DNA of 64,000 bases from Opitutaceae bacterium (GTDB lineage Bacteria; Verrucomicrobiota; Verrucomicrobiia; Opitutales; Opitutaceae). Made by a program: the position numbers and the translations under genes. Shown here one piece after another: positions 3,881 through 63,476 of the stretch (position 1 is the first letter of the stretch; the number at the start of each line of letters is the position of its first letter). Location of the stretch: assembly GCA_027482185.1 (NCBI GenBank), contig JAIXWF010000022.1, positions 620,001-684,000 of the forward strand, read 5' to 3'. A model generated the notes under the pieces. It was not told where the DNA came from, searched no databases, and saw only the letters and a list, made by a program, of their open reading frames with translations.

Positions 3881-4008
3881 TAAGACCGGAATTCGGAAAC
3901 CGGATACCGGAAACCTGAGGTCGGAGTTCGGAGCTCGCGCGCGAAGGATCCTGAATTTGCAATCTCCGATGTTTCCGGTCTCCGGTTTCCCGATTTCCGG
4001 TCTTATCG
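3881..4008. repeat. Period-7 repeat element with inverted arms between argC and argJ stops
   Basis: The left arm (3881-3935) is a run of degenerate 7-mers (GGAATTC, GGAAACC, GGATACC, GGAAACC and so on). The right arm (about 3950-4008) is its complement in inverted orientation. Both arms begin with the same terminal motif, ATAAGACCGGAA, placed zero bases after the argC TGA and two bases after the argJ TAG. The element therefore exactly fills the space between two convergent stop codons and can fold as a long imperfect hairpin on either strand. A role as a two-way terminator is possible but unproven. Confidence 0.8.
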
Positions 4009-5325
4009 CTAGCTTCGATAGTCCGCGTTCTCGCTCACGTACTCGTGGGTGAGGTCGCCGCCGATGACGGTGGCGGAGGCGGCGCCGTTGCCGATGTCGA
4101 TCTCGAGCTCGACGCAGCGTTCGTGCGGCGGGAAATCGATCGGCGCGGAAAACACGCCGTCTTTCGGCGGCGCACTTTGGTAGAGCTCCGCGTCGCGCAG
4201 ATGGGCGACAAGCGCTTTTTCCTTTTCCGGATTCAGCTGGAACACGCCGCGGGCGAAAATCTCCACGCCGCCGAGCTTCGCGCTGAGCTGGCTGAGGTTG
4301 GTGCCGGGGGCGTGCGCGCCGACGTGCTTGCCGATGGCCTGGATGAGGCGGCCGACGTTCGGGTCGTTGCCCGCGACGGCGCACTTGAAGAGCGGGCCGT
4401 TGACGACGGCTTTGCCCAGCGCGCGGGCGAGGCCGAGGCTGGCGGCGTTGCGCACGGTCACGCGGATCACGTGGCGGATGCCCTCGCCGTTGCGCACGAC
4501 GTCCTCCGCGAGATCGCGGCAGACCTGGTGCAGGCCGCGCTCGAAGGCGCCCCAGTCGGTGAACGGCACGCGGCCGGAGGAAAGGGCGACGACGGTGTCC
4601 GACGTGCTGGTGTCGCTGTCGACGCTGATCGCGTTGAAGGAAGCGTCGCAGGCGCGCGCGAGCATCGGGCGCAATTCGGTGCGCGGCACGGCGATGTCGG
4701 TGAGGATATAGACGAGCATCGTCGCGAGGTTGGGCTCGATCATGCCCGCGCCCTTGGCGATGCCGACGATGCTGCCGCCGCCGACCGTGGCGCGGCGGAT
4801 TTTCGGATAGAGGTCGGTGGTGACGATGCCTTCCGCGGCGGGCAGAATGGAGGCGTTGGTCAGCGCGGCGGCGGCCTGCGGCAGGGCGCCGACCATGGCG
4901 TCGACGGGGAGGGTCCAGCCGATGACGCCGGTGGAGCAGGGGAGGATCTGGCCGGGGGCGAGGCCGAGCTGCGCGGCGGTCGCGGCGCACATGCGTTCGG
5001 AGGCCTCGACGCCGCCGGGGGCGCACACGTTGGAAATCTTGTTGTTGATGATGACGGCGCCGAGCGTCGGTTCGGCGAGGCGCTTGCGGCCGACGATGAC
5101 GGGCGCGCCGGGAAATGCGTTGCGCGTGAAGAGCGCGGCGAAACTCGGCGTCGGCTGGTCGAGAGTGAGCAGCGTGAGCGTCATCTTCGCGGGCTTCGGC
5201 GCCTCGGCGGGCATGAAGTCGAAGCGCGTGGTGCCGACGCGGAAACCGGCGGGGAGCGCACCTTGGCTGGCGAGCCACGCGCGGTGCTCGTTGCGGTGGG
5301 CGAAAGTGAGATTCGTGCTGGGCAC
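4009..5325 (-). CDS. argJ: Bifunctional glutamate N-acetyltransferase/ornithine acetyltransferase
   Basis: Transfers the acetyl group from N-acetylornithine to glutamate, closing the acetyl cycle of arginine synthesis; many members also use acetyl-CoA. The 438-residue precursor carries the self-cleavage site KGAGMIEPNLATML. Cleavage before Thr202 would give alpha and beta chains and expose the nucleophile. The upstream CSTGVIG segment near residue 130 is the oxyanion-hole region. The protein ends with the conserved type of tail HEYVSENADYRS. It lies between argC and argB but is transcribed in the opposite direction, convergent with argC and divergent from argB. Whether this copy is bifunctional or only recycles acetyl groups cannot be read from the sequence. 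Confidence 0.95.
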   Translation of the reverse strand: MPSTNLTFAHRNEHRAWLASQGALPAGFRVGTTRFDFMPAEAPKPAKMTLTLLTLDQPTPSFAALFTRNAFPGAPVIVGRKRLAEPTLGAVIINNKISNVCAPGGVEASERMCAATAAQLGLAPGQILPCSTGVIGWTLPVDAMVGALPQAAAALTNASILPAAEGIVTTDLYPKIRRATVGGGSIVGIAKGAGMIEPNLATMLVYILTDIAVPRTELRPMLARACDASFNAISVDSDTSTSDTVVALSSGRVPFTDWGAFERGLHQVCRDLAEDVVRNGEGIRHVIRVTVRNAASLGLARALGKAVVNGPLFKCAVAGNDPNVGRLIQAIGKHVGAHAPGTNLSQLSAKLGGVEIFARGVFQLNPEKEKALVAHLRDAELYQSAPPKDGVFSAPIDFPPHERCVELEIDIGNGAASATVIGGDLTHEYVSENADYRS

Positions 5326-5364
5326 GCCGCAGACCTTGGGTCGGCGCGACGCGGAGTGAAGAAG

Positions 5365-5402
5365 ATTTTGCGCGGCGCGCGCCGCGGGTGCCGCGCGAAA
5401 AT
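5365..5402. repeat. Inverted repeat in the argJ-argB divergent promoter region
   Basis: ATTTTGCGCGGC and GCCGCGCGAAAAT are complementary apart from one bulged base and are separated by 13 bases. The repeat lies 40-77 bases before the argJ start and about 117 bases before the argB start, so it could be an operator or a leader hairpin. It does not resemble the ArgR box. Confidence 0.4.
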
Positions 5403-5518
5403 TGTGATGGAAATGCGCGCGGCCTGTGCCTTAGTCACGGGCTCTCTCCGAACCAGTGAACGCCTTTTCCGTTCTTCTCCACCACTCCGCGGCCGCGTGC
5501 CGCGCGTCCTGACCGCCG

Positions 5519-6400
5519 ATGAACGTCGCTGAAGTCACCGCCAAGGCGAAGGTCCTCCTCGAGGCGCTCCCCTACATCCAGGATTTCCGCGGCTCCACGT
5601 TCGTCGTGAAGTACGGCGGAAGTTTCATGGACGATCCGGATCCCGTCGTGCGCACGCGCGTGGCGTACGACATCGCGTTCCTCGCCGCCTGCGGGATCAA
5701 CGTCGTCGTCGTGCACGGCGGCGGCAAAGCGATCACCAAGGCGATGGAGGGCTCGGGCCTGAAAGCCAATTTCGTCAACGGCCTGCGTGTGACCGACGAG
5801 GCCACGATCAACGTGGTGAAGAAGACGCTCGACGAAGTCGTGAACAAGGACGTCTGCGCCGCGGTCGCGTCCGCGAAGGGCAAGCCGAAGGGCCTGCCGG
5901 GCGACACGGTGCTCGTCTGCGAAAAACTCACGGTCGACGACGACGGCAACACGATCGACCTCGGCTACGTCGGCGACGTCACCGAGGTGAAAGTGAAGCT
6001 GATCAAAAAGGAAATCGGCGACGGCTTCATTCCCATCATTTCCCCCGTGGCCGAAGGCTACGACGGCAAGCCCTACAACGTGAACGCCGACCTCGTCGCG
6101 GGCCGCGTCGCGAGCGCGCTGCGCGCCCGCCGGCTCGTGTACATGAGCGACGTGCCCGGCCTGCTGTCGAATCCGCCCGACCCGGCGTCGCTGATTTCCA
6201 CGCTCAAGATCTCCCAGGTCGACGACCTGAAAAAGAAGGGCGTGATCGACAAGGGCATGCGGCCGAAAGTGCAGAGCGCGATCCGGGCGCTGCAGGAAGG
6301 CGTGCAGCGCGTTCACTTCATCGACGGCCGCCTGGCGCATTCGCTGCTGCTCGAGATTTTCACCGACACCGGCATCGGCACCGAGATCGTGCACGGCTGA
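5519..6400 (+). CDS. argB: Acetylglutamate kinase
   Basis: Phosphorylates N-acetylglutamate with ATP, usually the controlled step when ArgJ recycles acetyl groups. The 293-residue protein shows VVKYGGSFM (residues 29-37), VVVVHGGGK (62-70) for acetylglutamate binding, and [13 protein letters not shown] near 186. About twenty residues precede the first kinase strand ([14 protein letters not shown]). That helix is characteristic of the hexameric, arginine-inhibited class, so feedback inhibition is expected from family knowledge. No Shine-Dalgarno motif is present. The stop is followed by a period-7 repeat element that reaches into argD. Confidence 0.96.
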
Positions 6401-62283: not shown

Positions 62284-62337
62284 GCGCGGAGGGATTTGCT
62301 GGAAAGGGACCGGCGTCTCCGGCACGGTCCCCGCACC

Positions 62338-63267
62338 ATGCGCGTCCTTGTCACCGGCGGTGCCGGCTTCCTCGGTTCCCACCTCTGCGAACGTCTGCTC
62401 AAGGACGGCCACGAGGTCGTCTGCATCGACAACCTTTTCACCGGCCAGAAGGCCAACATCGCCCACCTCGTCGCGAATCCGAATTTCGAATTCGTCCGCC
62501 ACGACGTCATCGATCCCTTCAAATTCGAGGTCGACCAGATCTACAACCTGGCCTGCCCGGCCTCGCCGCCGCACTACCAGTACAACCCGATCAAAACCAT
62601 CAAGACCTCGGTGATGGGCGCGATCAATTGCCTCGGCCTCGCGAAGCGGCTCAAGGCGCGCGTCTTCCAGGCGAGCACCAGCGAGGTCTACGGCGACCCG
62701 CACGTGCACCCGCAGCCCGAATCCTACTGGGGCAACGTCAACCCGATCGGCAAACGTTCCTGCTACGACGAAGGCAAGCGCTGCGCCGAGACGCTCTTCT
62801 TCGATTACCACCGTGAGAACCGCGTCGATATCCGCGTCATCCGCATCTTCAACACCTACGGCCCGCGCATGCATCCGAACGACGGCCGCGTTGTCTCGAA
62901 CTTCATCGTCCAGGCCCTGAAGGGCGAAGACATCACCATCTACGGCGACGGCACGCAGACGCGGTCGTTCTGCTACGTCGACGACCTGATCGAGGGCTTC
63001 GTCCGGTTCATGGCGCAGACGGAGACCGTCGGGCCGTTGAACCTGGGCAATCCCGGCGAGTTCACGATGCTGCAGCTGGCGGAGAAGACGCTGCAATTGG
63101 TCGGCGGGAAATCGAAGATCGTGCACAAGCCGTTGCCGGCCGACGACCCGAAGCAGCGGCGCCCCGACATCACGCTGGCGAAGAAACACCTCGGCGGCTG
63201 GGAACCGAAAGTGCCGCTCGAAGAAGGCCTGGCGCGCACGATCGCCTATTTCCGCACGAAGGTCTGA
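62338..63267 (+). CDS. uxs: UDP-glucuronic acid decarboxylase
   Basis: Converts UDP-glucuronate to UDP-xylose, a sugar donor for envelope glycans. The 309-residue short-chain dehydrogenase has the NAD-binding motif [19 protein letters not shown] (residues 3-21), the catalytic Ser/Thr region [12 protein letters not shown] (about 113), and the catalytic Tyr-Lys pair in [13 protein letters not shown] (about 140). The segments [19 protein letters not shown] and [21 protein letters not shown] are typical of bacterial UXS. The ATG at 62338 starts just before the NAD motif. No further sugar-nucleotide genes are adjacent. The TGA stop begins MITE-like copy C. Confidence 0.93.
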
Positions 63268-63426
63268 GGCGGAATCAGGCAGTTGAGAGACGAAAGTTGA
63301 GGGTTGGGAGATCGATCCGCCGAGCCACGGAAAAGGTCGCCGCAGCCAGCAGCCTTACGAACCGAACGGTTTGGGCTCTCAACTCTCAGCCAAGCTCTCT
63401 CAACGGCATGAGTTCGGCTGAGGCGG
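63265..63426. mobile_element. MITE-like element, copy C (GTTGAGA ends)
   Basis: It begins at the uxs stop TGA with TGAGGCGGAATCAGGCAGTT and ends near 63426 with AGTTCGGCTGAGGCG. Terminal inverted units GTTGAGAG (63282-63289) and CTCTCTCAAC (63395-63404) lie around the core ATCGATCCGCCGAGCCACGG and ACCGAACGGTTTG. It is nearly identical to copy B and more distant from copy A. No transposase gene is inside it. Confidence 0.75.
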
Positions 63427-63429
63427 AGC

Positions 63430-63476
63430 GTGCCGTTGGGAGCTTGGAGCCGAGGGTTGAGAGATCGATCCGTCGC
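63430..63476. repeat. Partial fourth copy of the MITE-like element
   Basis: The 45-base end reads TGCCGTTGGGAGCTTGGAGC then GGGTTGAGAGATCGATCCGT. It matches the first third of copies A and C and stops before the core. It suggests a tandem or truncated insertion next to copy C. Confidence 0.6.

Follow-up and report, generated by a model that had tools for sequence, protein, structure and literature searches.

Arrays of short tandem repeats with a period of 7 bases populate the gaps between genes in a 64,000-nucleotide stretch of an Opitutaceae genome (GenBank assembly GCA_027482185.1, contig JAIXWF010000022.1, positions 620,001 to 684,000; hereafter, the window). They probably form the inverted ends of small genetic elements of a foldback-like class, with arms shaped by slippage and template switching and a unit that is read by a protein; we put the probability of this reading at roughly 0.7. 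A complete element would measure about 0.45 kb and consist of a single gene, coding for a small protein, with a short tandem array at one end and the same array in inverted orientation at the other. The protein would be either the 23S rRNA-intervening-sequence protein (IVP, also S23 or "four helix bundle"; Pfam ID PF05635) or GxxExxY (Pfam ID PF13366), and the gap arrays of the window would be gene-less or one-armed forms of such elements.

A profile search of the genome with PF05635 gives seven matches, six of them over the cut-off; PF05635 and TIGR02436 both score over cut-off, indicating that an IVP/S23 reading frame is present. At loci L002, L003, and L006, a period-7 array lies just upstream of the IVP gene and an inverted one just downstream, with a unit common to both. 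Arm matching was scored by reverse-complementing the downstream flank, aligning the upstream flank to it, and comparing the result with percentiles of mismatched arm pairs. The first set comprised 36 loci, 7 from this genome and 29 from relatives; the latter are best matches (at most 30 per search), among which weak or broken copies are under-represented. Inverted arms exceed the 95th percentile at 30 of these 36 loci, and lag-7 coverage is 12.3% within 200 bp of the IVP gene versus 0.6% beyond 400 bp. Among the best 80 of 584 loci from named genomes, 66 have matched arms above the 95th percentile and 46 above the 99th. NCBI ranks assign a phylum to 64 of the 66 matched loci, 16 phyla in all: Bacteroidota (16 loci), Bacillota (10), Acidobacteriota (8), Planctomycetota (7), Pseudomonadota (5), Kiritimatiellota and Chloroflexota (3 each), Fibrobacterota, Cyanobacteriota, and Verrucomicrobiota (2 each), and six phyla with a single locus.

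As a control, all 273 usable genes of a 400-kb stretch were treated in the same way. Six exceed their 95th percentile and 7 have arrays on both sides; among the 31 small genes of the stretch, the counts are 0 and 1, respectively. Arrays on both sides are found at 75 of 108 IVP loci, a set made up of the 80 named loci together with 28 of the 36 from this genome and its relatives. The same 108 loci form the IVP part of the control and GxxExxY comparisons and of the unit-pattern, Mantel, G.U, and unit-order tests described below; they leave out L004, L005, L007, L013, L028, L032, L034, and L038, several of which have a period of 8, 6, or 9. For the period itself, the version to use is the test over all 59 own and relative IVP loci.

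The arrays also mark the limits of what is shared between copies. Two IVP copies of one genome (L013 and L038) show one continuous match of 414 bp with 95% identity, which starts within the upstream array and stops where the downstream array starts; besides this, they match in array units and in a partial copy located farther on in L038. The match between L020 and L025, which occupy different sites in two genomes, is confined to the stretch from array to array. Arms on both sides are present at three of the four cyanobacterial plasmid IVP genes inspected. One IVP query matched 34 of 72,556 plasmids, and the same query gave no match in 50,697 phage records. In a plasmid of Nostoc edaphicum (L313), an IVP element with AGTAGGG arms is located between genes annotated as two ribonucleotide reductase subunits. 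In a plasmid of Anabaena sp. 90 (L312), an IVP gene with a 275-base upstream array, and with no matching downstream arm seen by eye, lies in a type I-D CRISPR operon, with cas6 and cas4 as its neighbors; a related Dolichospermum plasmid carries another insert in the cas6-cas4 gap.

The units vary from one IVP element to another (AGTTGAG, AGTTCGG, AGTGGTT, AGTTCTC, AGGGACT, GTAGCGG, and others) and share a pattern. On the strand of the gene, they read purine, G, T or G, any base, a purine-rich position, and two positions with any base (R-G-T/G-N-R-N-N), with an information content of 3.21 bits versus 2.40 ± 0.06 bits in permuted units. Unit similarity is 0.726 between the arms of one element and 0.486 between arms of different elements, and the element's own partner arm ranks in the top tenth for 66 of 79 elements. 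Among the 67 loci with agreeing arms (similarity > 0.55), unit similarity climbs with IVP identity from 0.45 at <30% to 0.75 at >70% (Mantel p = 5e-4). Since unit similarity tracks protein identity and the arms of an element agree, the unit drifts and both arms change together.

GxxExxY, a nuclease-like protein of the PD-(D/E)XK superfamily that is unrelated to IVP, is likewise found between arrays. At the gyrB/gyrA and gatA/gatB sites (these and livK/livH were named from reading of the translations), this genome carries a GxxExxY gene where at least one relative carries an IVP element. In a set of 33 GxxExxY loci (4 from this genome and 29 best matches from relatives), the arms are matched and inverted at 21. 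None of these loci shows lag 7, while 18 show lags of 9 or 10 and 5 show lag 8; among the 59 IVP loci, lag 7 is seen at 40, lag 8 at 10, and lags 9 or 10 at 5 (Fisher p = 9e-12 for lag 7 and 2e-6 for lags 9 and 10). On a quick IVP tree of 105 columns, in which 60 of 131 inner branches are open, periods 7 and 8 change 10 times, as against a mean of 17.05 and a minimum of 13 in 300 label shuffles; the tree was built without L007, L034, L152, L160, and L069, the last of which has a stop in frame. Thus, the two protein families differ in period, and within IVP equal periods group together on the tree. The divergent IVP relatives at L004, L005, and L155 to L157 have 6-, 9-, or 12-base periods beside the gene. 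DUF559 (Pfam ID PF04480), a candidate third cargo, has matches in 6 of 38 genomes.

In the window, our own codon-usage gene caller predicted 51 genes and 42 gaps with 6,982 gap bases. Self-match of the gaps at lag 7 is 0.3255, compared with 0.2876 ± 0.0053 in 200 dinucleotide shuffles (z = 7.2), and multiples of 7 are also raised (lag 14, z = 7.7; lag 21, z = 4.9); the remaining lags from 1 to 30 range from z = -5.1 to +3.7. A scan of the gaps for repeated segments yields 12 arrays at lag 7, 9 at lag 14, and 4 at lag 21; among lags 4 to 20, those other than 7 and 14 give at most one each. Extended to 400 kb of the contig with 185 gaps, the segment scan yields 70 lag-7 segments versus 0, 1, 1, 0, and 1 in five shuffles; 48 of the 185 gaps hold a lag-7 array, and lags 6, 8, and 9 yield 9 to 11 segments. 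An earlier note, made from the window alone, had proposed that degenerate period-7 arrays fill the gene gaps and had suggested autocorrelation as a check. Both the sharp lag-7 peak in the window and the 70 arrays of the contig, against some 0.6 in shuffles, bear it out. Its list of sites is mostly right and needs correction at four of them, given here by start: 12098 (within a 974-codon reading frame and not in a gap), 46552 (an array at 46554-46585 that overlaps the start predicted for the next gene), 47254 (below the threshold of the segment scan), and 53408 (an exact 8-base array; only its neighbor at 53479 has period 7). The list lacked the 9-base inverted pair 8990-9007/9106-9144 and the fact that several arrays are opposed by an inverted partner, for example, at 3881-4008 and 6401-6581. 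The features are as follows.

3881..4008: inverted pair without a gene, located where two genes converge; ACCGGAA/GTTCGGA units in the left arm (3887-3937) and their complement in the right arm (3971-3999)
6401..6581: gene-less inverted pair of ATTGCGG units; arms 6402-6437 and 6552-6581; DNA fold z = -2.6
7835..7849, plus strand: two GTTGAAA units; the sister genome has further ones
8990..9144: gene-less inverted pair of the 9-base (GxxExxY) kind, CACAGAGGA/CACGGAGG, assigned to this kind by eye against flanks of GxxExxY genes; arms 8990-9007 and 9106-9144
10222..10430: mosaic of ACCGGAA, ATTGCGG, AACTCCG, and AAACCCA arrays in stretches 10222-10287 and 10351-10430
12098..12125, plus strand: AGTTGAG x4, inside the 974-codon reading frame 11443-14364 of the minus strand
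26859..26889, plus strand: GAGTTGA array directly past a predicted stop codon (26850)
34852..34990: copy of a family resembling miniature inverted-repeat transposable elements (MITE-like family), arms built of AGTTGAG units
36110..36224, plus strand: ATTGCGG array (36110-36136), then ACCGGAA arrays up to 36224
46554..46585, minus strand: AACTCCG array; overlaps the start predicted for the gene that follows
48751..48858: AAGCTTT/AAGCGGT array, then TCAGCGA and TCCGGTC arrays
53407..53464, plus strand: exact 8-base array, CGGAAAAT x7.2
53479..53540, minus strand: AATCCGC period-7 array
54805..54986: copy of the MITE-like family
63264..63477: copy and part copy of the MITE-like family

The MITE-like family (54805-54986, 63264-63477) is near-palindromic, about 170 bp long, with AGTTGAG arms and a conserved GATCGATCCGCCGAG; it matches about 40 places in the sister genome, on both strands, as a high-copy gene-less form. 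The 974-codon frame 11443-14364 probably encodes a glycine dehydrogenase, judging from its translation. In an alignment with the sister, the array at 12098-12125 is 9 bases longer there, and the frame is therefore preserved; a heptad array is tolerated in coding sequence at this place. A different dispersed repeat, CCCGGGCTGAAGGCCCGGGCTACG, is found at 11338-11437, 18290-18333, 19395-19438, and 28725-28768; at 11258-11442 there are two copies of it here versus one in the sister.

The gap arrays look like gene-less derivatives of IVP elements because 61 of the 70 arrays of the 400 kb can be assigned to one of the four period-7 units found at the genome's own IVP genes (typed by hand from the flank and unit analyses). 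Mean similarity to these units is 0.779 versus 0.602 ± 0.027 in random sets; none of 1000 random four-unit sets from named loci does as well, and this holds with a G+C-rich pool. In gaps of 50 to 700 bases, arrays favor those between converging genes (21 of 31) and avoid those between diverging genes (2 of 38), and a strong inverted pair is found in 12 of 119 gaps without lag-7 arrays, several of them of the 8- or 9-base kind. Gene-less 9-base arrays are too few per genome for a comparison with own units. Samples from six genomes without IVP contain no array in 294,765 bases, and those from 17 genomes with IVP contain 121 in 880,000 bases, 82 of them from the 400 kb of this genome; a few of the arrays outside this genome look like G+C-rich chance. 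Across the 23 genomes, lag-7 density shows a Spearman correlation of 0.65 with the IVP count, 0.69 with Y1_Tnp, and 0.64 with GxxExxY. The arrays are not a free-standing satellite.

In the sister genome (G006), where the 300-base coding anchors beside the compared gaps are 87 to 98% identical, the compared gaps keep their arrays and differ in the number and make-up of units. The gap at 3881-4008 is 128 bp here versus 199 bp in the sister, with 1 versus 12 exact copies of GTTCGGA; its orthologs in several other relatives are short and array-free. The gap at 48741-48805 is 65 bp here versus 130 bp in the sister. The active gain and loss of units that the earlier note expected from a comparison between strains is thereby supported. 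Its further idea of a mechanism that counts 7 bases is too simple: the period goes with the protein, mostly 7 and also 8 or 6 for IVP and 9 to 10 for GxxExxY, and at other places in the genome arrays of the same units enclose a gene as its two inverted arms.

Whole elements turn over as well. The gyrB/gyrA site could be measured at 27 of 30 loci. It holds an IVP gene in five genomes (G001, G006, G007, G015, and G017), a GxxExxY gene in six (G000, G008, G011, G013, G014, and G019), and, by eye, a short gene-less inverted pair in five (G004, G010, G012, G018, and G023). A 520-base insert is present in G003 and 116 bases in G022, and at nine loci the gap of 10 to 66 bases was taken as empty. The gene-less pair of G004 carries the unit of that genome's own IVP element, L018 (by eye). 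The gyrB-gyrA gap of a Clostridia genome (L105) likewise holds an IVP element, as it does in relatives of the window's genome; this element looks independent because its unit, AGTCATT, differs. The gap past a TraM-domain gene in Nostoc plasmids measures 51 to 52 bases in three plasmids without an insert. Two others have an IVP element there, with AGGGAAC arms, a sixth has a pair of arms with no gene between them, and in a seventh an inverted pair built of another unit lies slightly further on (pairs identified by eye). The C052 plasmid, which bears the element, shares 94.7% identity with one empty plasmid over their common part and 84 to 93% with the others compared; the arrays coincide with the ends of the element. 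One site can thus be empty, gene-less, or filled.

The following mechanism would connect these observations. Elements may move, or be copied, into gaps between genes, and gene-less forms may be moved or maintained in trans. Replication slippage would lengthen and shorten the arms; slippage accounts for the gain and loss of units, not for matched inverted arms. These would be kept alike, at the DNA level, by template switching between the two inverted arms, for which quasipalindrome mutation is a precedent. Template switching may engage in any of many registers, and for this reason arms would share a set of units without sharing their order, which is the pattern observed. An in-register mirror copy of one arm by the other was rejected: in 64 elements with variable arms, unit order reached p ≤ 0.05 in 5 (Wilcoxon p = 0.06). 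The protein, probably an oligomer, would recognize the unit and thereby set the permitted period and sequence pattern; such binding is suggested because period and pattern go with the protein. The Protein Data Bank entries for IVP homologs (2gsc and 2rld) comprise five chains each, which fits an oligomer.

Several observations weigh against this reading. Matched arms above the threshold are missing at 6 of the 36 and 14 of the 80 IVP loci, including the sole archaeal one. A strong inverted pair is present in only 15 of 44 lag-7 gaps of 50 to 700 bases, the others having single arms or degenerate ones, and 5 of the 17 sampled IVP-bearing genomes gave no array. The density correlation names no agent, as Y1_Tnp and GxxExxY follow it equally. 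We know of no catalytic domain in IVP, and searches of IVP with Pfam and NCBIfam returned nothing beyond the family itself. Mobility is suggested by comparative evidence, with no transposition observed; by eye, the Nostoc insert stands in place of some 30 to 40 bases that the empty gap has, and the Nostoc sites show at most a 3-base overlap and not a clear duplication of the target of the kind that marks a DDE-type MITE. The argument for arm homogenization by template switching is a statistical one.

Among other explanations, the arms might be conserved as RNA, forming a stem used by RNase III or as a terminator, as in 23S rRNA intervening sequences, with selection acting on pairing. This is unlikely, although it has several points in its favor: the 3881-4008 pair folds far better than shuffled sequence (-66.5 kcal/mol, z = -6.5), the arrays prefer gaps between converging genes, and excision of S23-coding intervening sequences by RNase III has been described (PMC4990558). 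However, in the 94 of 108 elements with an arm alignment score of at least 13, differences between the arms show no bias toward G.U over A.C (104 versus 128, p = 0.13), and transversions are as common as transitions (252 and 232). RNA-level selection on the arms was rejected on the lack of a G.U bias. Besides, pairing alone requires neither a constant period nor one that follows the protein.

It is somewhat less probable still that a Y1 (REP-associated or IS200-like) transposase moves the arrays in trans, with IVP and GxxExxY as passengers, in the way that RAYTs are thought to move REP palindromes. The Y1_Tnp count follows lag-7 density (partial rank correlation of 0.39 given IVP, versus 0.23 for IVP given Y1_Tnp), and the six genomes that have neither arrays nor IVP have no Y1_Tnp either. 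However, of 10 Y1_Tnp loci inspected, not one is flanked by arrays on both sides, and 3 have one lag-7 segment somewhere in 2.4 to 5 kb. This genome has a single Y1_Tnp match and yet dense arrays, and the drafts G009 and G014, without Y1_Tnp matches, have IVP arrays on both sides (L027) and on one side (L035), respectively. The dependence of the period on the protein would be left unexplained.

There is little to recommend the view that the arrays are ordinary heptanucleotide microsatellites (short tandemly repeated repetitive sequences [STRR] or long simple sequence repeats), driven by slippage of a polymerase that favors 7-base slips, with the nearby genes coincidental. Unit number does change between sisters; PMC4679880 cites an earlier proposal that 7 nucleotides is the footprint of the polymerase and reports that two Cyanothece strains differ by indels mostly in 7-nucleotide steps. 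Such slips would not explain why the arrays cluster at IVP genes and not at other genes, why they form inverted pairs with a matched unit, or why they are absent from the 294,765 bases of the six IVP-free genomes; the other periods around another protein, GxxExxY, weaken this view further. IVP presumably resembles Avd of diversity-generating retroelements. Writing of the arrays from an RNA template by a reverse transcriptase, to which drifting but counted units and a weak correlation of RVT_1 count with array density (0.43) might point, is very improbable and largely refuted here by the lack of any RVT_1 match in this array-rich, 98% complete genome; the reverse transcriptase expected of a diversity-generating retroelement is not detectable here, and for the same reason none is needed for the arrays.

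Taken as terminal inverted repeats of small elements, the arrays combine parts that are already known, namely IVP and heptamer repeats, in what appears, from its architecture, to be a new class: drifting-array ends with a protein-tied period match no bacterial kind that was found. This connects two puzzles studied apart, short drifting repeats and a protein family of unexplained function, by offering an origin for the former and a likely role for the latter, which is widespread. It yields a bench-testable rule of one repeat length per protein, and it raises the questions of how a protein of about 120 residues could set the unit length of repeated DNA and how two arms that lie far apart can both drift and yet remain alike. 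Because the elements lie between genes for subunits of core proteins (gyrB/gyrA and gatA/gatB) and come and go between sister species, they matter for the evolution of operons as well. A wider proposal, which we hold tentatively and at slightly less than even odds, is that these are a large unnamed class of bacterial foldback-like elements in which a tiny protein acts as a molecular ruler. Each protein family, and each clade within it, would dictate the period and pattern of both ends, which would be rewritten together. Gene-less copies seeded in trans would feed much of the heptanucleotide DNA reported from cyanobacteria, Beggiatoaceae, Bacteroidota, and others, and the 23S rRNA intervening sequences would be the minority that landed in rRNA.

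Of the known systems, the 23S rRNA intervening sequences, from which IVP/S23 genes are known and for which a selfish or transposon origin has been discussed, share with the elements the protein family, the location of the gene between inverted repeats, and a size of about 0.43 kb; they have been called selfish and suspected of transposition (PMC4990558). In contrast, the elements described here occupy gaps between protein genes (gyrB/gyrA, gatA/gatB, and livK/livH), have arms made of short-period arrays, and are abundant in gene-less forms. No Rfam match to rRNA was obtained in 10 loci of about 3.3 kb (eight IVP and two GxxExxY), and the flanks of six loci read as protein genes in translation. 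The possibility that the gyrB/gyrA loci are 23S rRNA was ruled out on these grounds, their translations reading as gyrB and gyrA.

The earlier note had named the heptanucleotide STRR of cyanobacteria as the nearest analogy, and the arms on both sides of three of four cyanobacterial plasmid IVP genes make it an apt one. STRR, long simple sequence repeats, and the TAACTGA repeats reported, without a mechanism, from Beggiatoaceae, Cyanobacteria, and Bacteroidetes are likewise intergenic and of period 7, and the heptanucleotide repeats also show 7-nucleotide indels between strains and a patchy distribution across phyla (PMC4679880). TAACTGA, taken on the other strand and rotated, becomes AGTTATC, which by eye fits the IVP unit pattern. 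The arrays share the tandem intergenic 7-nucleotide units of STRR and long simple sequence repeats, and they are not simple direct repeats without further architecture. The passages of PMC4679880 consulted describe its repeats as direct and do not mention matched inverted arms or an IVP gene; the terms S23, four helix, and 23S rRNA do not occur in its main text. No paper linking IVP or GxxExxY proteins with such arrays was found in the literature searched, which lies largely outside subscription journals, and no description of the family was found there either, so that the earlier note's remark that the family was unfamiliar stands.

REP/RAYT systems and bacterial MITEs resemble the elements in their inverted repeats and many gene-less copies, and differ from them in that here no Y1 transposase lies inside the element and the arms are tandem arrays whose unit varies by element. 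The nearest structural analogs are the foldback elements of eukaryotes, which have long inverted ends made of short tandem repeats. Inverted ends of tandem short repeats are likewise present here, but these elements are bacterial and tiny, their one gene is for no known transposase, and their period is tied to the protein.

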